57,909 nucleotides of DNA, taken from Gammaproteobacteria bacterium. Lineage in GTDB: Bacteria; Pseudomonadota; Gammaproteobacteria; Pseudomonadales; Pseudohongiellaceae. Numbering within the stretch: position 1 is the stretch's first letter; each line of letters starts with the position of its first letter. The stretch is taken from the NCBI GenBank assembly GCA_030654835.1, contig JAURWS010000053.1, positions 1-57,909 of the forward strand. The letters are read 5' to 3'. Under the pieces are notes generated by a model. The model saw only the letters and a list, made by a program, of their open reading frames with translations. It did no database searches and was not told where the DNA came from. Positions 9,989 to 21,412 of the stretch are shown one piece after another. The translations under genes and the position numbers were made by a program.

Positions 9989-11068
9989 ATGACAACTAAC
10001 GAACTCCCCCCATCTTTCAGTTTCCACATTGACGGCGACGAGCATGTCGAACATACCGTTCCTGCAGTCGTGCTCGCCCAGATCCTGGAAAATGCCCAGC
10101 ACGCGTTCGAACTCATCGGCATGCAGGCAGAGGGTCGAGAAATCCGTGCACGGGCGCGCATCACTACCGCCACCAGCAAACGTCTTCAGCTTATGTGCCA
10201 GCTGCCCAAACCTGGCAGCTATGCAGTCCCGGTCACCATCGGTGGTGTCGGCGACCTCTTTTCCCCGGAATTGGCAAGCAAAGTTTTAGGCATCTTCCGC
10301 ACAGTCGTTGCATCAGTTTCCTCACGCAGTCGTGATGGTCTGATTGCAGCACTGCCCAATGAGCGTATCCGCCGCCGAGTACTGGAGTCCATCAAGGGCA
10401 TGGCACCTCGGGCTGGTTCCCGATGGAAGCTGAGCCTGCATGACGACCTGGGCACTACTTTCGGCACCTTCGACACACAGACCATCCCCTTCGTGGATGA
10501 AACACTGGTTCCTGCAGAACAGCGCGAAGCAGCGCGCGTAGTCACTGGCGAGCTCAAGAGCATCGACTTCACAGAGCGCAAGGTCACGATTATTTACCCA
10601 CCGACGAGCAAGGAACTTGCGTGCATCTACGAGGACGCAGTCGAAGACATGCTCTATGAAAGGCGACGCGACCTGATTCAGGTCACCGGACGCGTACTGC
10701 TGGACGACGAAGGCTCGCCTAGGCAGATCATTGATGTCACTGACATCCGCGATCTAGACCTCTCCTCGCTGGAAATCGATACGGTTGAACATGGCCTTCT
10801 GAAGCTGAAGGCCTCGCAGACGATCAACCTTGAACCAACGCTGGATGAAACGAAGCAACTGCTCTGCATCGAGCATGAAAGTCTGGCACTCGATGTATAT
10901 GCGCCAACCCGAGAGCGACTGCTGGCCGAGTTGAACGAACAAATTGCCATGTTGTGGGCCGAATACGCACTGGCCGATGATGATACGCTGGACAGCATTG
11001 CCCGCGACCTCAAGCAGACACTGCTCGCCACTTTCGCCGAGGTGCGTGATGCCGCGCAAGCAGAGTGA
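9989..11068 (+). CDS. Unknown 359-aa protein paired with a HicA-like gene
   Basis: No family recognised with confidence. The protein is soluble, with no signal or membrane segment. Residues ~195-280 look like a beta-rich OB-like module (VVTGELKSIDFTERKVTI, later VTGRVLLDDEG). The C-terminal ~75 residues resemble a HicB-type antitoxin tail (YAPTRERLLAELNEQ, then MLWAEYALADDDTL). The stop overlaps the following HicA-like gene by 20 bases, so the two are almost certainly cotranslated and probably interact. It converges with the minus-strand defence operon. Possible role: large antitoxin or regulator of the HicA-like partner; this rests on context and gene order only. Confidence 0.8.
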   Translation: MTTNELPPSFSFHIDGDEHVEHTVPAVVLAQILENAQHAFELIGMQAEGREIRARARITTATSKRLQLMCQLPKPGSYAVPVTIGGVGDLFSPELASKVLGIFRTVVASVSSRSRDGLIAALPNERIRRRVLESIKGMAPRAGSRWKLSLHDDLGTTFGTFDTQTIPFVDETLVPAEQREAARVVTGELKSIDFTERKVTIIYPPTSKELACIYEDAVEDMLYERRRDLIQVTGRVLLDDEGSPRQIIDVTDIRDLDLSSLEIDTVEHGLLKLKASQTINLEPTLDETKQLLCIEHESLALDVYAPTRERLLAELNEQIAMLWAEYALADDDTLDSIARDLKQTLLATFAEVRDAAQAE

Positions 11069-11342
11069 AGTTGAGAAAAGTCTCTCCAGCAAAGGCTTTC
11101 GGCACAAAGAAGGCGATCACAATTACTTCAACTACTACTCCACCATCGGCAAGAAGACAGCCGTTTTCACCAAGACCAGCCACGGTGCGCGCGAAATCGA
11201 CGATCATCTGTTGGGCCGCATGGCGAAGCAGTGCAAACTTTCCCGGGCGGACTTCGACCGACTGATTGATTGTCCGTTGGATCGGGAGAGCTACGAAAAG
11301 AAGCTTATTGCGCAGAGGATGATTGAGGTGCTCCCAAGCTAA
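11049..11342 (+). CDS. HicA-like RNA-binding toxin domain protein
   Basis: 97-aa basic protein with the HicA/YcfA-like dsRBD pattern: a short helix, then SKGFRHKEGDHNYFNYY carrying the His (H24) that corresponds to the catalytic His of HicA's G-S-H motif, a beta hairpin (KKTAVFTKTSHG), then a C-terminal helix region with LLGRMAKQCKLSRADF. HicA toxins cleave mRNA and are neutralised by HicB. Starting at ATG 11049 gives the family-like N-terminus and a 20-base overlap with the upstream gene. The protein is longer than classical HicA (~60-80 aa), and toxicity is not shown, so a non-toxic RNA-binding role remains possible. Confidence 0.72.
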   Translation: MPRKQSEVEKSLSSKGFRHKEGDHNYFNYYSTIGKKTAVFTKTSHGAREIDDHLLGRMAKQCKLSRADFDRLIDCPLDRESYEKKLIAQRMIEVLPS

Positions 11343-11387: not shown

Positions 11388-13391
11388 TCACTTTGATTCT
11401 GAATCTAGAACTTTGATATTCCAGCCGAGTTGCTCAAGTCGCTGCCGTGTCTCGGATTGCTTGCCGTTTAGTTCGAGTACGCTTCTTCTCATAGCAAGGC
11501 ACAGGAGATGGCTTGGACGCGTCATGGCCGTATAGATTAGACGCATGCGTTCAGTTCGTTCCTTACCCTCTTTCTTACTACTGCCGCATTTCTCACCGGA
11601 GAGCCACTGCAGGAGATCCTCCATATCATGCTTCTTGAAGTATGACTCCACCACCAAGGTTGCTGTGTGCGTCTGGCCCTTAGCGCTATGAATGGTCCCC
11701 ATCTCGATGTCAACGTAGCGAGAGTCTTGGAGAAACCGATAGCGATTGGGCGTCGAGAGGCATTCGGCATCCCTGCACGACGACTGTTCGGCATACTCCA
11801 TTGACCATTGACAGAAAGCAGCCGCATTCCCGCTCCACTCTTTTCCAATGATTGGATGGAGTGCGCGACGAAGTTGCTCAGTCTTGTCGAACCAAAGCTT
11901 CTCAACAATAGGCGTCGACTCGACACACCACTCCCAGAGAAGGTTACGGAGTAACACGCAGGACGATTCATCAATCTCGAGTGCCTTCCATAACCATTGC
12001 GTCATTTGCCCACTCCGTGGGATTGTCGTCGGTCGGACAATGTCGATCAGTACACAGATTCCCTTGACGACCATCTTGACTGATTCGGCACAATCAATGT
12101 TAGAGACACCTCTGCGCTGAGCGACGTGAATATAGTCGGAAAAGTACTGTGGCCTTGGGTCAGGCTTTGCGGAGCGTGATTCATAGTTATTCCAGTAATC
12201 GCCGAGATGTTTTGGAACCTTTTCACCAGATTCATCGAGCTTGCCCACCCGCCCAATGGCACGTGCCAGAAATGCCTCGCAGCGCAGCACCTCGTCGGGA
12301 AAACTTCCAAGCAAGAGTTTTCCGAACCCCGGAAGCACTTTCGATACCGAGTCTGGCTCGAAGAGAAAGATCGTGTGGGGCATATGAGCCGTATCGAAGA
12401 CATGTGGGAAAATCCGGGAATTTGGCCCCTCGCCACTCAACACAGGGGCTGGCGGATCAGGCGCAAGTGAGTGTGCCTTTTGAGCAACCCCCTTACCAAA
12501 ACGCTGACTATTCGGGAGTGACCTGTATCCATCTGCCGGAAACGGGTCGGTCGTGGACGCCAGTTGCCCAGAATCGTAAATAGCCTGATTTGAGTCCCCG
12601 AACCTTTGGCGGAGGTTACAGGCGTAAGCCGGGAAGATTTTATTGAGCAAAACTCCTTGGTGCTCTGATGTGTCCTGCATCTCATCTATGAAAATTGCAG
12701 GGAAGCGCCAGCGCGCGAACTCTGTGATGTTTCCTTGGTCTACCAATAATTTATCGGCCCAAGCAAACATGTCATCGTAATACCAGAGGCCCTTCTTGGT
12801 GGCCTCTGCCTTTACACCACAGAGCACTCTCCACTGGTTATCAGTGATTCCCCCAACTGTGTTAGGCCCGATTGCTTCACCTGCGCCTATCAGGTTTCGG
12901 ATGCCGCCATCAAGAGTTCTCTCTTTACGTGGCAGATTGCCCAGCTGCTTCCGATTAGACCACAAGTTCAAGCGTTGCTTGACCCACTCAAAACACGCAT
13001 CGTTGTCGATCAACCGCGTGTGGTATCCCTCCGACCGCAACAGCGGCAGGGCAAGGAACTCGTTGATGAAACCCTGGATCGTGCCCACGAAATGCGGGTA
13101 GGCGAGAAGTCGCTGCCCAATGGGAGTTCCGCCAAGCTTCTGTTCGATCTCCTGACGAGCAACATTGGTATGTGATAAGACGCAGATGCCTCGGCGTGAA
13201 TACGGCCACTTATCGGCCAGAACAGCCAGTTTAGCGACGAGCAGCGTCGTCTTGCCGCTGCCGGGACAGGCCTGAACATCGAAGCATTCATTGGAGCGAA
13301 GTATCTCACGACGCTTTTCGTCGAATTTTATACCGAGATAGTTTTCGACCTTCGCAATATCGGCGTCAGTCACGCTTGGTATTGATCGCAT
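11388..13391 (-). CDS. UvrD/Rep-like superfamily 1 helicase (Gabija GajB-like)
   Basis: 667-aa DNA helicase. Walker A is ACPGSGKTT (41-49), motif Ia region VLSHTNVARQEIE, Walker B IDEMQDTSEHQ (~235), motif V TIHSAKGQTHT (~565) and motif VI YTAMTRPSHLL (~627), so both RecA-like lobes are present. In Gabija systems a smaller UvrD-like GajB works with an OLD-family nuclease GajA against phage; here the helicase follows the OLD gene by nine bases on the same strand. It is longer than the typical ~490-aa GajB, so it may represent a variant class. It is the last gene of the five-gene operon and is visibly AT-richer than flanking housekeeping genes. Confidence 0.87.
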   Translation of the reverse strand: MRSIPSVTDADIAKVENYLGIKFDEKRREILRSNECFDVQACPGSGKTTLLVAKLAVLADKWPYSRRGICVLSHTNVARQEIEQKLGGTPIGQRLLAYPHFVGTIQGFINEFLALPLLRSEGYHTRLIDNDACFEWVKQRLNLWSNRKQLGNLPRKERTLDGGIRNLIGAGEAIGPNTVGGITDNQWRVLCGVKAEATKKGLWYYDDMFAWADKLLVDQGNITEFARWRFPAIFIDEMQDTSEHQGVLLNKIFPAYACNLRQRFGDSNQAIYDSGQLASTTDPFPADGYRSLPNSQRFGKGVAQKAHSLAPDPPAPVLSGEGPNSRIFPHVFDTAHMPHTIFLFEPDSVSKVLPGFGKLLLGSFPDEVLRCEAFLARAIGRVGKLDESGEKVPKHLGDYWNNYESRSAKPDPRPQYFSDYIHVAQRRGVSNIDCAESVKMVVKGICVLIDIVRPTTIPRSGQMTQWLWKALEIDESSCVLLRNLLWEWCVESTPIVEKLWFDKTEQLRRALHPIIGKEWSGNAAAFCQWSMEYAEQSSCRDAECLSTPNRYRFLQDSRYVDIEMGTIHSAKGQTHTATLVVESYFKKHDMEDLLQWLSGEKCGSSKKEGKERTERMRLIYTAMTRPSHLLCLAMRRSVLELNGKQSETRQRLEQLGWNIKVLDSESK

Positions 13392-13400
13392 CGGGTTCGC

Positions 13401-15440
13401 CTATTGAGTCGGATTCCCTGCACCCTTTGTGTTTTGTCCGGTAGCGGCGTTAGCACTGTCGGGCCTCGTAACATATTCGATCGCATTCTGAATGTAGTCA
13501 GGAATATGTAACGAGAGACCGTCACTCTTATTCGACTTTAGTAGACATGCCAAGTGTTGAGCGGTTACTGGTTTCGACAGACTTCCAAGAAGCGGCTTGT
13601 ATACATTGTAAGCGAGGAGTTCTTTGGAGCTTTTGGGCAATCCAGCATCAGCATTTAACTTTTCCCACGTGACCTCTGCGGCAGCAATGACACGCTCTCG
13701 TTGCCCTTCGGCGGTGGTAGCAGGCTTTTTGTCCAGCTTGGCCTCGTCTTTCGCCAAAGCGATTGCCGTATGGAGACTGTGACCAAGTCCGGCGAGAGCT
13801 AAGTCGTATTCCAGCGTCCAGTGACCTGATACGAAAGTGCGCACATTCTCGCCATCATCAATACATTTCTTTTCAATCCAATTCGCACGTTCGATCTCGC
13901 TCTTTAGATCTTCTTCGTAGCGAGGTTGATTACTTGATTTCTCTTCGCCAGAGTCAGTTTCCATGCTCGAAATCACCCGAGCGCAATTGGGCAAAATGTC
14001 ACGGTCTGCAAGGCATGCCACGCGTATCGGTATGGAATGTGTCGGTGTTCCATCAGCCAGCGCCTTGCGGCGAAATATGCGCGCATAACGACGTAACCCA
14101 CGACTACCCACGTTGACAATGGACACACCATATCGAGTGAGGTCTCGTCCGAGCAGTTGAGCCAAAGAAGGCAGGAGCAAGTTCTCCGCATCTCCTTCAA
14201 CAATAAGAACCGCTCGTGCAAAGAAGATGTTGGCTTTGGTGGCGTCCAGAAATCGTTCGAGGAATCCGTAGTCTGACGGCGACAGCAAGGTGTATTCAGG
14301 CCCCATGGGAAAACCACGGCCTTGAGAGACTAGAATCATGTTGGTCAGCTTCACCTTGGATGCAAGAATAGGGCTGTGCGTGGTGACGATTACCTGGACC
14401 GGCCTCCCTCCATCTTCAGCCACTTGTTCCTGAAGAAACTCCACCAGTCGTAATTGAAGCTGAGGGTGCAAATGGGCTTCGGGCTCTTCGATCAGCAATA
14501 GAGGCAAGGTGTCGCGATCCTGTCCCAACAACAGGAGTTCACAAGCCATGAACAGCAGGTTGTTGTAACCGAGCCCATGTGGAAGCTGGCCGTCAGGATC
14601 GGTCACAGTAGAAAGGCGAAGCTCCAACTTCTCCAGGATTGCTCGTAGTCGTTGATCGATGGTGGCGTCTTCTCCGATGGATACTCTGCTGCCAAGCTCC
14701 TCGTCACCTAAATTCAAATTCGCAAGGTATCGTGTATCCAGTCGATTACCTGCCTCCTTAACGCCCTCGTTTTCCTGAAGGAGATAGTCTGCGAGGCGTG
14801 AGATGTTTGCGATGCTTTTCGGAAATTCGGGCTGAACCTTGGTTTTCACAGCAAGGACAAAGTCTGCCGGACTAAACGATTCAACTTTGTGAGCAGCGAT
14901 CTCCTTTGTGTGCTGAAGAATCTGCGACAGTCTTGAGTTGCGGCCAGCATCAAGTTCGCGCTCGGCGTCACGCAGTGGGCGAAGGTAAGTGGCCTGCAAT
15001 AACAGCCGCACATTACTGTCCAACACTGGACCAGTGCCCTCCCTACCTGATCGCACTTCGACCACGATCCGACGCCTGACGTTCACATTGTCGTTGCGCC
15101 TCGCAAGGAAGCTGACATACAGGCAGGGTGCGCCGTTTTCGTAAGAAAGGTGCTCCAGCAGTGCACCGCCCGACTCCTTGTCGATGTCTGCAAATCGGCA
15201 ACGAATGCTGAACTCGGAAGTTCTCTGACCACTCTCTACGTGGAAGTCCTCGTCAGTTACGCGCTGGAAGTCCTGACTCGTGGTTCCCAACGCGAAGCGG
15301 ATGGCATCGACGATTGCAGTCTTCCCTGAGTCGTTCTCCCCGACTAGGACATTGAGCCCGGCTTGGAATGGGAGCATGAGGGCGCTCTCACCGGCCCCGA
15401 ACAACCGGAAATTTTCAATTTCTATTTCAGCGAGATGCAT
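13401..15440 (-). CDS. OLD-family ATPase/TOPRIM endonuclease (Gabija GajA-like)
   Basis: 679-aa protein. The N-terminal SMC/ABC-like ATPase has Walker A GENDSGKT (34-41) and Walker B LLLIEEPEAHLHPQL (~316), followed by VTTHSPI. The C-terminal TOPRIM nuclease domain starts with LIVEGDAENLLLPSL (~415) and has the metal-binding DxD in CLADRDIL (~476). This is the architecture of OLD nucleases and of GajA, a nicking endonuclease regulated by nucleotide. The ATG lies 14 bases inside the 3' end of the hsdMS gene, so translation is likely coupled to the restriction system. Partner: the UvrD-like helicase downstream. Longer than classical GajA (~580 aa). Confidence 0.9.
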   Translation of the reverse strand: MHLAEIEIENFRLFGAGESALMLPFQAGLNVLVGENDSGKTAIVDAIRFALGTTSQDFQRVTDEDFHVESGQRTSEFSIRCRFADIDKESGGALLEHLSYENGAPCLYVSFLARRNDNVNVRRRIVVEVRSGREGTGPVLDSNVRLLLQATYLRPLRDAERELDAGRNSRLSQILQHTKEIAAHKVESFSPADFVLAVKTKVQPEFPKSIANISRLADYLLQENEGVKEAGNRLDTRYLANLNLGDEELGSRVSIGEDATIDQRLRAILEKLELRLSTVTDPDGQLPHGLGYNNLLFMACELLLLGQDRDTLPLLLIEEPEAHLHPQLQLRLVEFLQEQVAEDGGRPVQVIVTTHSPILASKVKLTNMILVSQGRGFPMGPEYTLLSPSDYGFLERFLDATKANIFFARAVLIVEGDAENLLLPSLAQLLGRDLTRYGVSIVNVGSRGLRRYARIFRRKALADGTPTHSIPIRVACLADRDILPNCARVISSMETDSGEEKSSNQPRYEEDLKSEIERANWIEKKCIDDGENVRTFVSGHWTLEYDLALAGLGHSLHTAIALAKDEAKLDKKPATTAEGQRERVIAAAEVTWEKLNADAGLPKSSKELLAYNVYKPLLGSLSKPVTAQHLACLLKSNKSDGLSLHIPDYIQNAIEYVTRPDSANAATGQNTKGAGNPTQ

Positions 15441-18039
15441 CAGTGTTTATCTCCTGCAGCACTTGAACGACAGTCCGATGGGGCGCTTCTGCCACTGACT
15501 TCAGGCATTGAACTTGATGCGACACCTCTCCCATCTCGTGGCACGCAGTAGCGTTGGGGGGCGATGCCCGCAAGGGGACTTCCGAGCCCCAGATTCGGGC
15601 GAGGGTTGCTTGGATTTTTTGCTCGAATCGAGTGATCAGTTCGCGATTTCCGGCCACCACCGTTTGCTCGACTTCGATCTCCGCCACGATGGCTTTCTGC
15701 AAGGCGAGGGATGGGAGGGGGACTTCGAGCCCAAGGACATGCTCGCGCGTGATCCCTGGAATTGCCGCTCCTCCACCAAGTGATTGTATGTGATCGAACT
15801 TCGCCAACAACACTACGTAGATGAATTCGGGATCCGCATCGCGAACACGGATTGCCATCAATTGCCGACTTATCGCAGCTTTTTCTGTGCTAAGTAGGTT
15901 CACACTTCCCAAGCCAGATCCCTTCACGGTCATAAGTATGTCACCCCTTTCGGCGAATACCTTGGGCTTAAATGTCCATCGTGTGGCGACCGGATGCTTC
16001 AAACCAAAATCGGACGGACCTGTGAGGTAGTCCACGCCGACCCGATTGGTGTTGTAATCCTCTTTGTCGATGTGCTGCCCAGAAATGAGTGTGCAGACGT
16101 CTGCCAAGATGCCCATCGGCCAGTTGGGGTGGATGGGGATGTGGGGGCGGTAGTGGTCGAGGACGGCGCGGGCGCCGTTGATGACTTTCTGGTAGCCCTC
16201 GATCTCTGCAACAATCTCCTTCTGCATCTCTAGCGGTGGGAGGGGGATTTTGAATTCACGAATGATCTTCTGCGATATGTTCGGCTGCGCTCCACCACCG
16301 GCGAGGCGAATCAGAGCGGGTTTGTTGCACTTGAGGATGAGGTAAAGAAAATCGGGACGAAGTCGTTCGTCTGGAGTGATGCCGCATACCGCCTGATTTG
16401 TGGCTGCCTTGAAGCGAAGAATTCCGACTTCACCTGCTGTCGCACCATACATCGCCACAAGCACGGTGTTCGGGGTGAAAATCTTTGCCGAGGAGTTCTT
16501 CAGACCCTCTTCAGTGATGAATAGCTCAGAGCGAAACACTTCTCCTTGGGCCACCTCTCCGCTTCGCAGCCACGGGATTGTTCCGCCTTCGTAGTATTCA
16601 GTTTTTCCGCTTAGTGGTGTTCCGCCAGAAGATGTCGAGCAGACTTCCTCAATTTTCACCAACGGGAAGATGTTCGTTTTGGCTCCTCCCTCCCGATACC
16701 GCTCAGCACTGAGGTTGTAATCACCATTCGCGGCAATCTTTTCCTTCTGCACAATCTGCGCAGTAGACGTGGCGCCAAAGATCGACTCAGTAGCAGTCTT
16801 GATGCGCAACGCCTGCAGATAATCAGCAAGCTCAACCTGCACTTGCGGCAAATCGTTCTTCTCAATCGCCCGCCGCTGTGCTCCCAGCCCAAACCCATCA
16901 TTCTCAACCTTGAAAAAAGCGACGGTGTTGCTCTGCCGGGCGAGAGACTTGTCGAGAATCAAAATACTGGTCTTCACGCCAGAGTACGGGTTGAAACAAC
17001 CAGCAGGGAGCGACACGACCGCCACGAGTGAATTCTCGACCAGCATCCTGCGCAGCTCTTTGTACGCGGTCTGACTCTGAAAGATGATGCCCTCAGGCAC
17101 GATAATCGCGGCGCGGCCGGTAGGCGTCAGGTGCTCAGCCATGTAGTCCACGAACAGCACTTCACTGCGCTTGGCTTGAATGGAGAAACGCTTGTGCGGC
17201 TTGATGCCCCCCTTCGGCGACATGAAGGGCGGGTTGGCCAAAATGACGTCCGCGAATTCATTCCAGCGCTCGTCAGAGGTCAGCGTGTCGTACTCGTAAA
17301 TGTGCGGATCTGTGAAGCCGTGCAAGTACAGGTTCACCAATGAGAGACGCACCATGTCGGGCGAGATGTCGAAGCCTTTGAAGTTCTTCGCGAGACGGCC
17401 TTTTTCATCTGGCGTAAGAGTGCTGCTGCCCTTTGCGTCAGTGTTCGTACGCAGGATGTGCTTGTAAGCAGAGATGAGAAATCCGGCAGTACCACAGGCT
17501 GGATCAAGGATGGTTTCGTGCTTCTGCGGGGCAAGCACCTCGACCATGAAATCGATGATATGGCGCGGTGTGCGGAACTGACCGGCATCACCTTGAGAGC
17601 CAAGTACGCTGAGCAGATATTCGAAGGCGTCGCCCAGGCGTTCGCTGTGGTCGTAACTGAACTCGTCGATGATCTTGAGAAAGGCTTTGAGCGTTTCAGG
17701 GTCGCGATAAGGCAGATAGGCGTTCTTGAAGATGTCGCGGAAGAGCGCGGGAATACCGGGGTTCTCGGGCATCTTGGCAATGCCTTCGCCGTAAAGGCCG
17801 AGCATCTCGTGGCCGCCGAGCGATGGCGCCATGAGCTTGGCCCAGCCGTAGCGGGCAAAGTCGCCGGTGAAGAATTTGCGTTTGCCGCCGAGTTCCTCTG
17901 ACTCGGCATCCATGTCGTCCATGAATTTGTAGATCAGGGCGATGGTGATCTGTTCAACCTGGGATTTGGGATCGGGGACTTTGCCTACAAGGATGTCGCG
18001 GGCGGTGTCGATGCGGCGTTTGGTATCGGTGTCTAGCAT
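15427..18039 (-). CDS. Fused type I restriction HsdM-HsdS (methyltransferase + specificity)
   Basis: 870 aa in one chain. The N-terminal ~430 residues are an N6-adenine methyltransferase: HsdM helical domain, SAM-binding motif DPACGTAGFL (179-188) and catalytic NPPF (269-272). From ~450 onward are two HsdS target-recognition domains (starting FPLVKIEEVC and NWPMGILADVC), each closed by a conserved helix (PLPPLEMQKEIVAEIE and PLPSLALQKAIVAEIE). Normally hsdM and hsdS are separate and combine as M2S, so the fusion gives an unusual M:S ratio. It begins one base inside the stop of the KilA-N gene (TAATG) and overlaps the OLD gene. Expected role: methylates host sites and guides HsdR. Confidence 0.92.
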   Translation of the reverse strand: MLDTDTKRRIDTARDILVGKVPDPKSQVEQITIALIYKFMDDMDAESEELGGKRKFFTGDFARYGWAKLMAPSLGGHEMLGLYGEGIAKMPENPGIPALFRDIFKNAYLPYRDPETLKAFLKIIDEFSYDHSERLGDAFEYLLSVLGSQGDAGQFRTPRHIIDFMVEVLAPQKHETILDPACGTAGFLISAYKHILRTNTDAKGSSTLTPDEKGRLAKNFKGFDISPDMVRLSLVNLYLHGFTDPHIYEYDTLTSDERWNEFADVILANPPFMSPKGGIKPHKRFSIQAKRSEVLFVDYMAEHLTPTGRAAIIVPEGIIFQSQTAYKELRRMLVENSLVAVVSLPAGCFNPYSGVKTSILILDKSLARQSNTVAFFKVENDGFGLGAQRRAIEKNDLPQVQVELADYLQALRIKTATESIFGATSTAQIVQKEKIAANGDYNLSAERYREGGAKTNIFPLVKIEEVCSTSSGGTPLSGKTEYYEGGTIPWLRSGEVAQGEVFRSELFITEEGLKNSSAKIFTPNTVLVAMYGATAGEVGILRFKAATNQAVCGITPDERLRPDFLYLILKCNKPALIRLAGGGAQPNISQKIIREFKIPLPPLEMQKEIVAEIEGYQKVINGARAVLDHYRPHIPIHPNWPMGILADVCTLISGQHIDKEDYNTNRVGVDYLTGPSDFGLKHPVATRWTFKPKVFAERGDILMTVKGSGLGSVNLLSTEKAAISRQLMAIRVRDADPEFIYVVLLAKFDHIQSLGGGAAIPGITREHVLGLEVPLPSLALQKAIVAEIEVEQTVVAGNRELITRFEQKIQATLARIWGSEVPLRASPPNATACHEMGEVSHQVQCLKSVAEAPHRTVVQVLQEINTDASR

Positions 18040-18869
18040 TATTTCAGGCGCTTCATAGTGTCGTCGTTTAGGAGAGTTCGCATCTGGGAAATGGCGATTT
18101 CGTTGAGTTTGTGCAGGCGGTCTGCCTGTGTCAGGCCCTGCCGGATCAGAACAGCGTTGAGGCTTTCCAGATTCGTCAGGACGACCAGTTGCTCCAGCGG
18201 AGCATGGTCGCGGATATTACCATCTGCGTCCGGGTTGCTGTCGCGCCATTGTTTGGCGGTCTGACCGAACAGGGCCACGTTGAGCAAGTCCGCTTCGTTG
18301 GCATAGACCAGCGTCGCCTGTGCGTTGCTAACGGCGGGCGGAATGAGTGTGTCTCGGATGGCGTCGGTGTGGATGCGGTAATTGATCTTGGAGAGGGTTC
18401 GCTGCAGATTCCAGCCGAGTTTGAGGCGGTCGCTCTCGTCGTCTTTAAGGCGCTGGAATTCCTTGATGAGATACAGCTTGAACTCAACGGATATCCAGGA
18501 CGCGAACTCAAAAGCAATGTCCTTGTGGGCAAAGGTTCCACCGTAACGCCCGGACTTGGAGACCAGTCCACTGGCGTTTGTCGTATCTATCCACTGTCGG
18601 GGCGTGAGAACAAAACTGTTGAGCCCCGCCTGTTTTTTAAACCCCTCGAATTCGAGGGGTTTAAAATCGGTGTTATTCAGCCGCTCCCATACACCCAAAA
18701 ATTCAATAGTATTGCGGCTCCTCATCCAGTTCTGGATGACGTGATCAGACCGGCCAGGCTCTTTATGCTTGGCGATATCGGTCAAGGAAATGAAGTCATC
18801 ACTCACCTGCCTGATAACCGTGACGTTGGTTCCTTGTACATCCAGGGTTGTCTTGCCGGGCTTGCTCAT
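18039..18869 (-). CDS. KilA-N domain protein inside the type I restriction operon
   Basis: 276-aa soluble protein. Residues ~15-135 form a KilA-N DNA-binding domain (FISLTDIAKHKEP, then GGTFAHKDIAFEFASWISVE), followed by a helical C-terminal half without recognised domain. KilA-N domains occur in phage antirepressors and in orphan genes of bacterial mobile or defence loci. The gene sits eight bases after hsdR and touches hsdMS (TAATG), so it is an operon member; its function there is unknown. Options are a regulator of the restriction genes or a DNA-binding accessory subunit. Confidence 0.85.
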   Translation of the reverse strand: MSKPGKTTLDVQGTNVTVIRQVSDDFISLTDIAKHKEPGRSDHVIQNWMRSRNTIEFLGVWERLNNTDFKPLEFEGFKKQAGLNSFVLTPRQWIDTTNASGLVSKSGRYGGTFAHKDIAFEFASWISVEFKLYLIKEFQRLKDDESDRLKLGWNLQRTLSKINYRIHTDAIRDTLIPPAVSNAQATLVYANEADLLNVALFGQTAKQWRDSNPDADGNIRDHAPLEQLVVLTNLESLNAVLIRQGLTQADRLHKLNEIAISQMRTLLNDDTMKRLK

Positions 18870-18877
18870 GCGTGCTC

Positions 18878-21412
18878 CTATGCCGCGAACTGGTTCAAGG
18901 AAACGTAGTCCTTGATGTACTCAGGGACAAGCATGCGATACGGCTGGGGCACGGCTCTGAAATCATGGGTGGTGAAGATCGGGTTGGTCGCGAGATCAGT
19001 GAATTGCCTGCTGTCGATGATATCGCGCACGCGGTTGCTGGTGACGTAGGCCTTGAAGTACGTCTTGATCGCAGGGATAGCCGAAGACGGCTCAGGAACA
19101 CGGTCAGCTACAAACTTCGAGAACTCCTCTTCCAACAACTCATCCTTGGATTTAAAGCGCGGAATAAGGCCGAAGACTTTCTCCAGAATTTCTCGCAGCG
19201 TCAGGCGGCGGTCGACAGCAGCAGCTTTCCGCAGTTTCTCCAAAGTGTAGTATTCCTCGGGCTTATCGAAAATTTCGCGGTTGACGTAATCGATGACACG
19301 ATCCCATTGCCCAGCTTCCACGGCCGAGGCAACCGTATCATTGGCGCGGATCGTGTCTTCGAATCTCTCGAAGAACATGCGATCGATCTTCATGCCCTCG
19401 GAGCCGATGGCTTCCTCCTTGATGCCTGCAAGGAAGTCGGTTCCCTCATGATCATAAACGATAGGCACAACTTCAGGTCCGCCACCTTCCTCCCCAGAAT
19501 TGCTCTTTATCGGAGGAAGCTTTAGCACTTCGTCGTAATTGAACTCCTCTTCGAAGTATTCGCAGTTGGCGAAGAAATCGAAAAGTTTGAAGGCGGTTTT
19601 AACGGGTTGTTTTACGCTCTCTTTCGCGGCGTCATCAAACAGGAGTTCCAGGAAATCATGTTTGCGAGTGCCACGCCCCTTTATCTGGATAAAATCAGTG
19701 GGGGAGAAAATCGGACGAAACAGGCCGATGTTGAGGATGTCGGGGCAGTCATAGCCGGTGGTCATCATGCCTACCGTCACGCAGATCCGCGCCTTGCTGG
19801 TTTTGTAACGGGGATTGAAGTTGCCGGAGCCCAGCAGATTGTTGTTCGCAAAATTGATCGTGAACTGCTGCGCATCCGGGATCTGGGATGTGACCTGCAC
19901 GGCGAAGTCCGATTGGTACTTACCGGGAAACATGAGATCAGCGATCTGATTGAGGATTTGCGTCAGTTTGGCAGCATGGCTTTGGCTCACCGCAAAAACT
20001 ATCGCCTTGCCAACCTCACCGCTGACCGGATCGCGCATGGCGTTCTCAAGAAACGTCTTGCAGAACAACTGATTGGTAGGTTCCGAGAAAAACTTCTTTT
20101 CAAACTCCCGCTGTTTGAAAGCCTGCTGCTGATCCTCGCCCGCATCATCGGTGAAAGTGACAACGAAACCCTGTTCAGAAAGCAGCGTCGTGGTGACTTC
20201 AGTGCGAGCATCCACCACAGTTGGATTGATTAGGAAATTGTCTTTCACGCCATCAAGCAATGAATAACGAAATGTCGGCTGACTGTTCTCGCAGCCGAAC
20301 GTGCGATAGGTGTCGAGCAGCAACCGCCGTTCCGCTTCACGTGGATCACGAGTGCCTTGCTTGGCGCTGTCGAACCGGCGCAGATAATCGCGCGGCGTCG
20401 CAGTGAGGCCCAGCTTGTAGCCGATGAAGTAGTCGAAGACGGCGCGGGCGTTGCCACCGATGGAGCGGTGCGCTTCGTCAGAGATGACAAGGTCGAAGTC
20501 AGTCGGCGAGAACAACTTCTGATATTTATTGTTGAAGAGCAGCGACTGCACGGTGGTGACGACAATCTCGGCACGGCGCCAGTCGTCACGGTTCTCTTTG
20601 TAGATCACTGTCTGATAGTCGGCAGACAGCACAGCCACGAAAGACTTCTTGGCTTGGTCCTCCAGCTCAAGACGATCCACCAGGAACAGCACTCGCCGTA
20701 CGTTGCCGGAGCGCAGAAACAGCTTGATGACGGCGGCGGCGGTCAGCGTTTTACCTGTGCCGGTGGCCATCTCGAACAGGAAGCGATCTTTGCCATCGCC
20801 CACTGCGGCTTGCAGGCTCTGGATGGCTTTGAGTTGATAAGGTCGCAGAAAGCGCAGTTTGTTGGTTTGGATGTAGCCGGGGCGCTCGGCCTCGTTTTGC
20901 CAGGCAGCCTCGGATTGGTAGTTCGGCCGCTGCGTGCGAACGATGTAGTCCTTGTCGACGTGCTCCTCGATCAACCTCTGTGGGTCAGGTGTGACCTTCT
21001 GGTAGCCAGTGACAGAGTCTGGGGTCGGAAACGAGGTGATGACATAAGGGCTGCCCCGTTCAAGGTCCCAGAAGTAATGCAGATTGCCGTTGGAAAGTAT
21101 GACGAACCGGCAGTTCTGAGACTTGGCGTACTTACGCGCCTGTTCTTTGCCGATAAGCGGATTCTTGTTTTCTGCTTTGGCTTCGAGAACCAACAACGGA
21201 AAGCCTTTGGCATCGAGCAACAGGAAATCGACGAAGCCCTTCGAGCCTTTCTCGAAGTTCTCGCCAAGCGCGTCCAAATCGCTTGATTTGATTGTGACGC
21301 TTGGTTCGAGACGAATGTTCGCGAGCGCGCTGCCATCTTGAAAAAAGCGCCAGCCGGCCTCTTCGAGCAGCTTGTTGATCTTGATGCGAGCAGTGGCTTC
21401 CTTATCGGGCAT
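18878..21412 (-). CDS. hsdR: Type I restriction endonuclease subunit HsdR
   Basis: 844-aa ATP-dependent translocase/nuclease. The N-terminal PD-(D/E)XK nuclease has D62, E77 and K79 (FVDFLLLD ... LVLEAK). Helicase motifs follow: Walker A EMATGTGKTLTA (~216) and SDEAHRSIGG (~309), with second-lobe motifs MMTTGYDCPDI and QIKGRGTRKHD. Together with the fused HsdMS it would cut unmethylated DNA away from its recognition site. First gene of the five-gene operon hsdR, kilA-N, hsdMS, OLD, UvrD-like. All nuclease and helicase key residues are present, so it looks functional. Chosen start ATG 21412 gives the usual N-terminus. Confidence 0.94.
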   Translation of the reverse strand: MPDKEATARIKINKLLEEAGWRFFQDGSALANIRLEPSVTIKSSDLDALGENFEKGSKGFVDFLLLDAKGFPLLVLEAKAENKNPLIGKEQARKYAKSQNCRFVILSNGNLHYFWDLERGSPYVITSFPTPDSVTGYQKVTPDPQRLIEEHVDKDYIVRTQRPNYQSEAAWQNEAERPGYIQTNKLRFLRPYQLKAIQSLQAAVGDGKDRFLFEMATGTGKTLTAAAVIKLFLRSGNVRRVLFLVDRLELEDQAKKSFVAVLSADYQTVIYKENRDDWRRAEIVVTTVQSLLFNNKYQKLFSPTDFDLVISDEAHRSIGGNARAVFDYFIGYKLGLTATPRDYLRRFDSAKQGTRDPREAERRLLLDTYRTFGCENSQPTFRYSLLDGVKDNFLINPTVVDARTEVTTTLLSEQGFVVTFTDDAGEDQQQAFKQREFEKKFFSEPTNQLFCKTFLENAMRDPVSGEVGKAIVFAVSQSHAAKLTQILNQIADLMFPGKYQSDFAVQVTSQIPDAQQFTINFANNNLLGSGNFNPRYKTSKARICVTVGMMTTGYDCPDILNIGLFRPIFSPTDFIQIKGRGTRKHDFLELLFDDAAKESVKQPVKTAFKLFDFFANCEYFEEEFNYDEVLKLPPIKSNSGEEGGGPEVVPIVYDHEGTDFLAGIKEEAIGSEGMKIDRMFFERFEDTIRANDTVASAVEAGQWDRVIDYVNREIFDKPEEYYTLEKLRKAAAVDRRLTLREILEKVFGLIPRFKSKDELLEEEFSKFVADRVPEPSSAIPAIKTYFKAYVTSNRVRDIIDSRQFTDLATNPIFTTHDFRAVPQPYRMLVPEYIKDYVSLNQFAA

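Follow-up and report, generated by a model that had tools for sequence, protein, structure and literature searches.

A Gabija Gene Pair Behind the Fused hsdMS Gene of a Type I Restriction Operon

Results

Genes of the Locus

The window is a stretch of 57,909 nt from a gammaproteobacterium of the Pseudohongiellaceae (GCA_030654835.1, contig JAURWS010000053.1). Five genes lie in one row on its minus strand (Table 1). The spacings from hsdR through the KilA-N gene, hsdMS, and gajA to gajB are 8, -1, -14, and 9 nt, which agrees exactly between the original prediction and the ORF coordinates. The row comprises five long family matches, tightly spaced and co-directional, and is judged to exceed chance.

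Table 1. Genes and sequence features of the locus in the window.
Feature	Position	Strand	Basis
hsdR (844 aa), motor and nuclease subunit of type I restriction	18878..21412	-	ORF call, Pfam, PADLOC, motifs
gene for a 276-aa KilA-N protein between hsdR and hsdMS; defense candidate PDC-S22 in PADLOC	18039..18869	-	Pfam, PADLOC, PHROG
hsdMS (870 aa), methyltransferase fused to the specificity subunit	15427..18039	-	ORF call, Pfam, PADLOC, motifs
gajA, OLD-type ATPase and TOPRIM nuclease, 679 aa	13401..15440	-	ORF call, Pfam, PADLOC, PDB match, motifs
gajB, UvrD-like helicase, 667 aa	11388..13391	-	ORF call, Pfam, PADLOC, PDB match, motifs
conserved stretch of hsdS that separates its two variable (target-recognition) parts, 74-91% nt identity with relatives	16113..16257	-	DNA alignment
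hsdS distal conserved region, where homology to L076, L077, and L099 ends ahead of the cargo; perhaps an edge of recombination	15586..15728	-	DNA alignment
hsdMS private tail, about 46 codons, not in nine other MS proteins aligned	15430..15567	-	alignment
AGGAG, 10 nt ahead of the gajA ATG; candidate ribosome-binding site	15451..15455	-	sequence

HsdR matches the Pfam domains ResIII (5.4e-38) and, over part of the domain, HSDR_N (4.7e-6), as well as the PADLOC model REase_I (1.8e-58); its match to the EcoAI-like model (4.6e-66) lies under that model's own cut-off. HsdMS contains N6_Mtase (1.3e-50) and two Methylase_S stretches. A string search located ATGTGKT, SDEAH, and LVLEAKAE in HsdR, DPACGTAGF and ANPPF in the HsdM part, GENDSGKT, EEPEAHLHP, VEGDAEN, and LADRD in GajA, and ACPGSGKT and IDEMQD in GajB. 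The catalytic motifs that had been called intact are all there, and their roles are presumably those usual in the respective families. As in a known type I restriction-modification (R-M) system, the HsdR, HsdM, and HsdS functions are all represented with intact motifs: an HsdR with a helicase motor and a nuclease motif, an HsdM N6-adenine methyltransferase with SAM and NPPF motifs, and an HsdS that has a pair of target-recognition domains, two of its parts being variable and two conserved. The locus in the window differs in that M and S are fused and a KilA-N gene sits between R and MS.

The other two genes were predicted to be a Gabija pair, which near full-length model matches bear out. GajA matches Pfam AAA_15 (2.9e-31) and OLD-like_TOPRIM (4.8e-15), and its residues 1-663 match PADLOC PDLC00099 (626 positions) at 7.6e-202. 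GajB matches UvrD-helicase (6.5e-17), and its residues 4-662 match PDLC00147 (637 positions) at 6e-163. The order is that of Gabija (class 2 OLD), an ABC-type OLD ATPase with a TOPRIM domain followed by an adjoining UvrD-like helicase gene, here 9 nt away; the difference is that the pair is carried at the 3' end of a type I R-M operon. Sequence matches to solved Gabija structures are distant (3.3e-8 for the best full GajA chain and 2.5e-4 for GajB). Both proteins had been described as longer than classical GajA and GajB. This is correct against most chains in the PDB (575-598 aa for GajA, with one entry of 675, and 493-499 aa for GajB), but within the family the length is normal for the PADLOC subgroup, and the near end-to-end matches to PDLC00099 and PDLC00147 rule out unusual length as a special feature. 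Elsewhere in the window's own genome we found a further OLD-like stretch (1.9e-11) and no second GajA match of equal quality. Judged from sequence, the window holds an intact type I R-M system plus a real Gabija in one co-directional row.

Facing the operon, a plus-strand gene of 359 aa without a family match (window positions 9989-11342) converges on gajB. A short ORF after it looks HicA-like by eye and is likewise without a family match.

Search for the Five-Gene Order in Other Genomes

With HsdMS as query at E<=1e-60, 15 of 369 genomes of the class matched, the window's own genome included. At E<=1e-100 there were matches in 4 of 398 phylum genomes and 2 of 293 order genomes, both counts including the window's own genome; two further draws gave 2/6 and 2/74 at the same threshold and returned only genomes already seen. 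All these draws overlap. Matches were also found in 63 plasmid records, 52 of them Escherichia, and at 14 loci in IMG/VR. A phage origin of hsdMS was considered and rejected: the 50,697 GenBank phage records gave no match at E<=1e-60, although IMG/VR contigs hold relatives, which may represent bacterial flanks or mobile elements.

We mapped 30 R-(K)-MS loci gene by gene, where K is the KilA-N gene: the window, 9 of the 14 other class genomes (the five weakest, at 33-37% over the M part, were left out), 2 of the 63 plasmid records, all 14 IMG/VR loci, all three other phylum genomes, and one other order genome. Dropping L111, whose contig ends inside M, and L114, where MS is broken and the contig ends, left 28 usable loci. 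HsdR or part of it precedes HsdM(S) in 30/30. A KilA-N gene lies between R and MS in five (the window, L076, L077, L078, and L080), and L079 has a small PD-(D/E)XK_3 gene in this gap. Either hsdR or M is split or shortened in the sister loci L077, L082, L100, L112, and L114, the M of L112 being without its first ~220 residues. A separate gene follows M in L109 and L110; that of L109 is hsdS (Pfam 8.8e-24), and that of L110, which has no Pfam match, is called hsdS solely by its similarity to the former (5.6e-16).

The complete order R-K-MS-GajA-GajB was found at the window only, with no second locus among the 29 other MS loci or the GajA loci examined, a set outside which most of the 67 GajA-matching plasmid records lie. 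A conserved five-gene system is rejected on its absence from these other HsdMS-selected and GajA-selected loci. Across the mapped loci, the recurring unit is the type I R-M operon R-(KilA-N)-MS rather than the five-gene row.

Cargo Behind hsdMS

In 22 of the 28 usable loci a co-directional gene follows hsdMS within 100 nt, and as sorted these genes fall into ten kinds. The 27 non-window loci were picked by HsdMS and not by cargo, so the choice of loci favored no cargo. Commonest is a family of ~245 aa that we call HEPN-like (10 of 28: L084, L091, L099, L100, L101, L103, L105, L110, L112, and L115). An ABC-3C set (CTD10 plus DUF2326) occupies three loci, L076 by a direct scan (PDC-M68B, 3.7e-154) and L077 and L080 by 81-87% identity, and DUF6602 occupies two (L104 and L113). 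The remaining kinds occur once each: Gabija in the window, an AbiJ/Abi_C-like gene in L083, a TrlF-type ATPase on an E. coli IncF plasmid (L090:3406-10954; PADLOC 'Ppl', 7.6e-137), PDC-S60 in L108 (PADLOC), a C5-methyltransferase with a HATPase, a 329-aa gene with a PIN gene in L078, and a 111-aa gene with Mrr_cat. L078, L079, and L081 are the less clear cases. Behind the ~245-aa gene lie AbiD in L084 and PDC-S19 in L105. The 329-aa gene of L078 is 25% identical over 110 residues to the 359-aa gene that converges on gajB in the window (E 7e-4, in a single comparison). An hsdMS at least 99% identical to that of L090 is present in 78 of 5,426 E. coli genomes, a count made on hsdMS, and is plasmid-borne in all of them.

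Several slots have cargo overlaps of 4 nt or 1 nt. ORF starts in L080, L100, L101, and L112 were judged too early, and the corrected spacings are -4, +13, +5, and -1. Six loci are without tight cargo (L082, L102, L106, L107, L109, and L116), L106 and L107 having identical HsdR. In L082 a 110-aa ORF at 46 nt was taken as spurious and a 381-aa cargo begins about 459 nt on; L116, with only an 82-aa ORF at 96 nt, was counted as without cargo. The position behind hsdMS looks like a docking site for exchangeable, mostly defense-like cargo, and the repeated tight coupling with differing genes suggests selection for co-expression.

The HEPN assignment of the ~245-aa family is only partly supported. 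Its members lie directly behind hsdMS or, in L110, behind the presumed separate hsdS. The member at 12521-13258 of L099 matches Pfam HEPN_RiboL-PSP at 0.0018, below the cut-off; an R-x4-H pair is invariant in 7/7 aligned members; and the structure model of the L099 protein is all-helical (pLDDT 87.5). A Foldseek search of this model against the PDB gave no match at E<=0.001, the sequence profile gave none at 0.1, and PADLOC gave none for the two members tested (L099 and L105).

The hsdMS/gajA Junction

In comparisons of the window with L076, L077, and L099, homologous DNA spans hsdR and the M part. The homology fades over the variable parts of hsdS, reappears in the conserved ones, and stops at 15586-15587, ~145 nt ahead of the start of gajA at 15440. 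The MS proteins of the relatives end within about 10 residues of this limit. The last ~46 codons of hsdMS and the 14-nt overlap with gajA are found only in the window among the ten MS proteins aligned. Because tail and overlap are both private to the window, a scar left by capture is the best reading of the overlap. The two defenses had been predicted to be cotranslated. The overlap is real but not conserved: it sits in the private hsdMS tail, and gajA has its own candidate ribosome-binding site. Cotranslation as a conserved feature is rejected on the same ground, the cargo spacings in sister loci being -4, -1, +3, +6, and others. No second such junction occurs in the loci mapped, and uniqueness of the junction had been named beforehand as a result that would speak against the proposed coupling. 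For the junction that result holds, but Gabija does recur next to other type I operons (see below).

A weak consensus scan found no minus-strand promoter between hsdR and gajA, the promoter count being at chance, and terminator-like sites were not above the level of shuffled sequence. GC3 is 68-71% in hsdR, the KilA-N gene, and the M part, 55-58% in gajA and gajB, and 81-85% in two neighboring genes. The two variable parts of hsdS have values of 47% and 58%, so low GC3 is not confined to gajAB.

Probable Exchange and Capture of Cargo

A tree was built from 27 of 29 HsdR pieces (>500 residues); L079 and L081 fell out, and L116 had no HsdR piece. The loci with a KilA-N gene form one clade (support 96/93). 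Within it L076, whose cargo is ABC-3C and whose HsdR is 88% identical, comes out as the sister of the window, with support of 93/91, just under the starred limit. The cargo of L077 and L080 is also ABC-3C, and that of L078 is not. Two further comparisons bear on how the cargo changes. L105 and L108, IMG/VR loci from one metagenome, are 89-90% identical in nucleotide sequence on both flanks and differ in hsdS and cargo. L103 and L107 share 79-80% identity on both sides with the cargo present in the former and absent from the latter, and the break begins already in the end of M. The simplest reading is that all or part of hsdS was replaced together with the genes behind it. On this evidence the locus in the window reads as a captured Gabija cassette on an R-(KilA-N)-MS unit. 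The L105/L108 pair can serve as a natural experiment in how cassettes are exchanged.

Gabija Beside Other Type I Operons

GajA loci were surveyed in two samples, in which the same genome is possibly present under two labels. The first has 52 loci, 46 of them with >3 kb of upstream sequence. The second comes from a search of 398 phylum genomes with the GajA model; it gave 14 matches including the window, hence 13 further loci. In the first sample, type I genes lie upstream on the same strand in 4/46. The orders are M-S-R-GajA-GajB in L016 and M-S-x-R-GajA-GajB in L042 (GajA, GajB, and HsdR by PADLOC in both) and R-M-S-GajA-GajB in L051 (GajA and GajB by PADLOC, HsdR and HsdS by Pfam); in L052, where Pfam finds HsdR and HsdM, further genes lie between and gajA is split into two ORFs. 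The second sample has R-M genes upstream in 0/13 and downstream in 1/13 (L151/L155, R-M-S after gajB with a 211-nt gap), so a fixed 3' position is no rule for Gabija. Type I neighbors are therefore present in 5/59 other GajA loci, R-M coming first in four and Gabija in one. Within the sequence examined, an R-M neighbor was undetected in 54/59, with profiles that cover the window's kind of R-M and two classical HsdR and could miss distant type I genes; Gabija, then, does not need R-M. As far as such neighborhoods tell, its placement next to unrelated type I operons is recurrent and not common.

The closest GajA found (74% identical) belongs to L006, a Thermoanaerobaculia assembly in which PADLOC confirms both GajA and GajB; its junction is not that of the window. 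Ahead of gajA, at the contig end, lies an ORF with a stretch of 54 columns that matches the beginning of hsdR in the window at 80% identity. L006 is possibly a decayed version of the same R-M/Gabija association, the remnant itself being doubtful. GajAB on an R-(K)-MS unit has thus been seen once, plus this doubtful remnant. On a Cupriavidus plasmid (L093:7512-13060), an annotated Shedu nuclease gene ends 67 nt ahead of a GajA-GajB pair, which makes a further close pairing of Gabija with some other defense gene.

The KilA-N Gene

The protein encoded between R and MS matches Pfam KilA-N (1.2e-23), PADLOC PDC-S22 (1.6e-135), and PHROG 2657, labeled 'transcriptional regulator' (8.1e-61). Going by the PHROG label, it may be the regulator of the operon, which we consider probable. 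In print, PDC-S22 is mentioned for its co-occurrence in Streptococcus suis, with no R-M context in the part of the source available. KilA-N matches occur in 24 plasmid records, and 0/5 of those opened have annotated type I genes beside the relative, in a PLSDB gene table that is incomplete. In G395, a genome of the window's order, a 243-aa relative lies between a CRISPR_assoc (PF08798) gene and cas1 (L089:7668-10214), with cas3 further upstream in the same CRISPR-Cas operon. Both observations led us to reject the KilA-N protein as an R-M-specific partner; the family seems to turn up within different immune loci. The window's own genome has a second KilA-N relative (G000:C50:11603-12139; L075, L073; L088), with a stop codon in one of the two matched pieces.

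Discussion

Defense genes inside type I loci have already been described, among them PrrC, the rlo genes, and DarTG2 (PMC2610378, PMC12707154, PMC12255303), and the arrangement in the window is a variant of this known embedding. The nearest likeness is the RptR-RMS-DarTG2-M48 island of EPEC (PMC12255303), where, in the available text, a whole unrelated defense system also lies inside a type I R-M operon. There DarTG2 sits between hsdS and hsdR under RptR, whereas in the window Gabija stands behind a fused hsdMS and a KilA-N gene occupies the R/MS gap. The authors suggest that the hsdS-hsdR site is a potential recombination hotspot, and they cite a preprint by Payne and others whose title speaks of new defenses embedded within immune systems. 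PrrC in ecoprrI and the Campylobacter rlo genes are likewise effector genes within a type I locus (PMC2610378, PMC12707154). As described there, PrrC is a second line when restriction is blocked, a role that by analogy we propose for the window pair; PrrC differs as a single tRNA nuclease with demonstrated dependence on the R-M enzyme, whereas any such dependence of the window pair would be hypothetical. The auxiliary OLD/TOPRIM, HEPN, and PIN effectors of BREX (PMC12839542) are comparable Gabija-type and other add-ons to a modification-based defense operon, as far as the accessible text goes, the host operon of the window being type I R-M instead. In the open literature, to which the search was confined, with subscription papers and preprints outside it, we found no report of Gabija combined with a KilA-N gene and type I R-M.

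In type I systems, HsdMS labels the cell's own DNA and HsdR cleaves DNA that lacks the label. We consider it probable that the window holds such a restriction operon, R-(KilA-N)-MS, with a replaceable second-line module, and that Gabija was captured in the slot behind hsdMS. HsdMS would methylate self DNA and, with HsdR, cut unmodified incoming DNA. GajAB would act as a separate nuclease/helicase complex, translated from a ribosome-binding site of its own on what is probably a shared transcript, and would help chiefly against phages that escape or inhibit restriction. Recombination in which hsdS, whole or in part, is replaced along with the genes behind it would exchange the cargo. In the available texts, GajA nicks DNA and is held inactive by nucleotides (PMC8136825), GajB is required for defense (PMC10568477), T7 Ocr, an inhibitor of type I enzymes, is stated to trigger Gabija (PMC12255303, PMC10286901), and PrrC and PARIS are guards of R-M (PMC12707154, PMC2610378, PMC9122126). 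A Gabija triggered when phages disarm restriction would fit the published work on Ocr.

How closely the two systems are tied can be read in several ways. GajAB may be inactive or unneeded while restriction works and be triggered by an Ocr-like anti-restriction protein, as PrrC is with EcoprrI. The effector is encoded at the R-M operon, as PrrC is (PARIS need not be), and the same logic of position applies as described for PrrC; Gabija is reported to be activated by Ocr, and sister slots hold Abi-type or HEPN-like candidates in 11/28. Published tests nevertheless show Gabija to be active by itself, and most Gabija loci have no R-M genes next to them; we hold this reading only tentatively, as a real possibility short of even. 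It is somewhat unlikely that Gabija lies behind hsdMS by chance, as in a simple defense island, with the two systems independent and the spacing without functional meaning. Since defense genes tend to cluster in any case, being adjacent is by itself no proof of cooperation, and the junction confined to the window's genome, the 54/59 other GajA loci without detected R-M neighbors, and the good candidate ribosome-binding site that gajA retains all agree with such an island. The 22/28 R-(K)-MS loci with tight, co-directional cargo of differing genes argue against it.

The original prediction also raised shared DNA recognition or regulation. The five genes do stand in one row, and HsdMS or the KilA-N protein could in principle target GajAB to DNA in a dedicated five-component system. 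But cargo turns over while R-K-MS stays, and the closest GajA found (L006, 74%) is without the window's junction, which makes such a system very improbable. Alternatively, GajB might be loaded at DNA ends made by HsdR, which would switch on GajA, so that one system begins the degradation and the other completes it. A published model has GajB detecting DNA termini (PMC10681800), yet the assays in the available text of that paper record neither ATP hydrolysis or translocation by GajB nor unwinding by the complex, and the sequence has no pointer to such a hand-over; we regard it as improbable.

The reading that we favor remains a restriction operon with a replaceable second-line module, into which Gabija was captured. 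A stronger form of it would make the hsdS end of R-(KilA-N)-MS operons a docking site where specificity domains and a complete second defense module swap as a unit, each specificity bringing its own back-up killer that is triggered when that enzyme is inhibited; we rate this form as unlikely. Natural pairs with nearly the same restriction unit and different back-ups would permit a direct test of whether the second line is tied to the failure of restriction. The 3' slot of the R-M unit may also be read as a pointer to defense genes, unnamed cargo families included.
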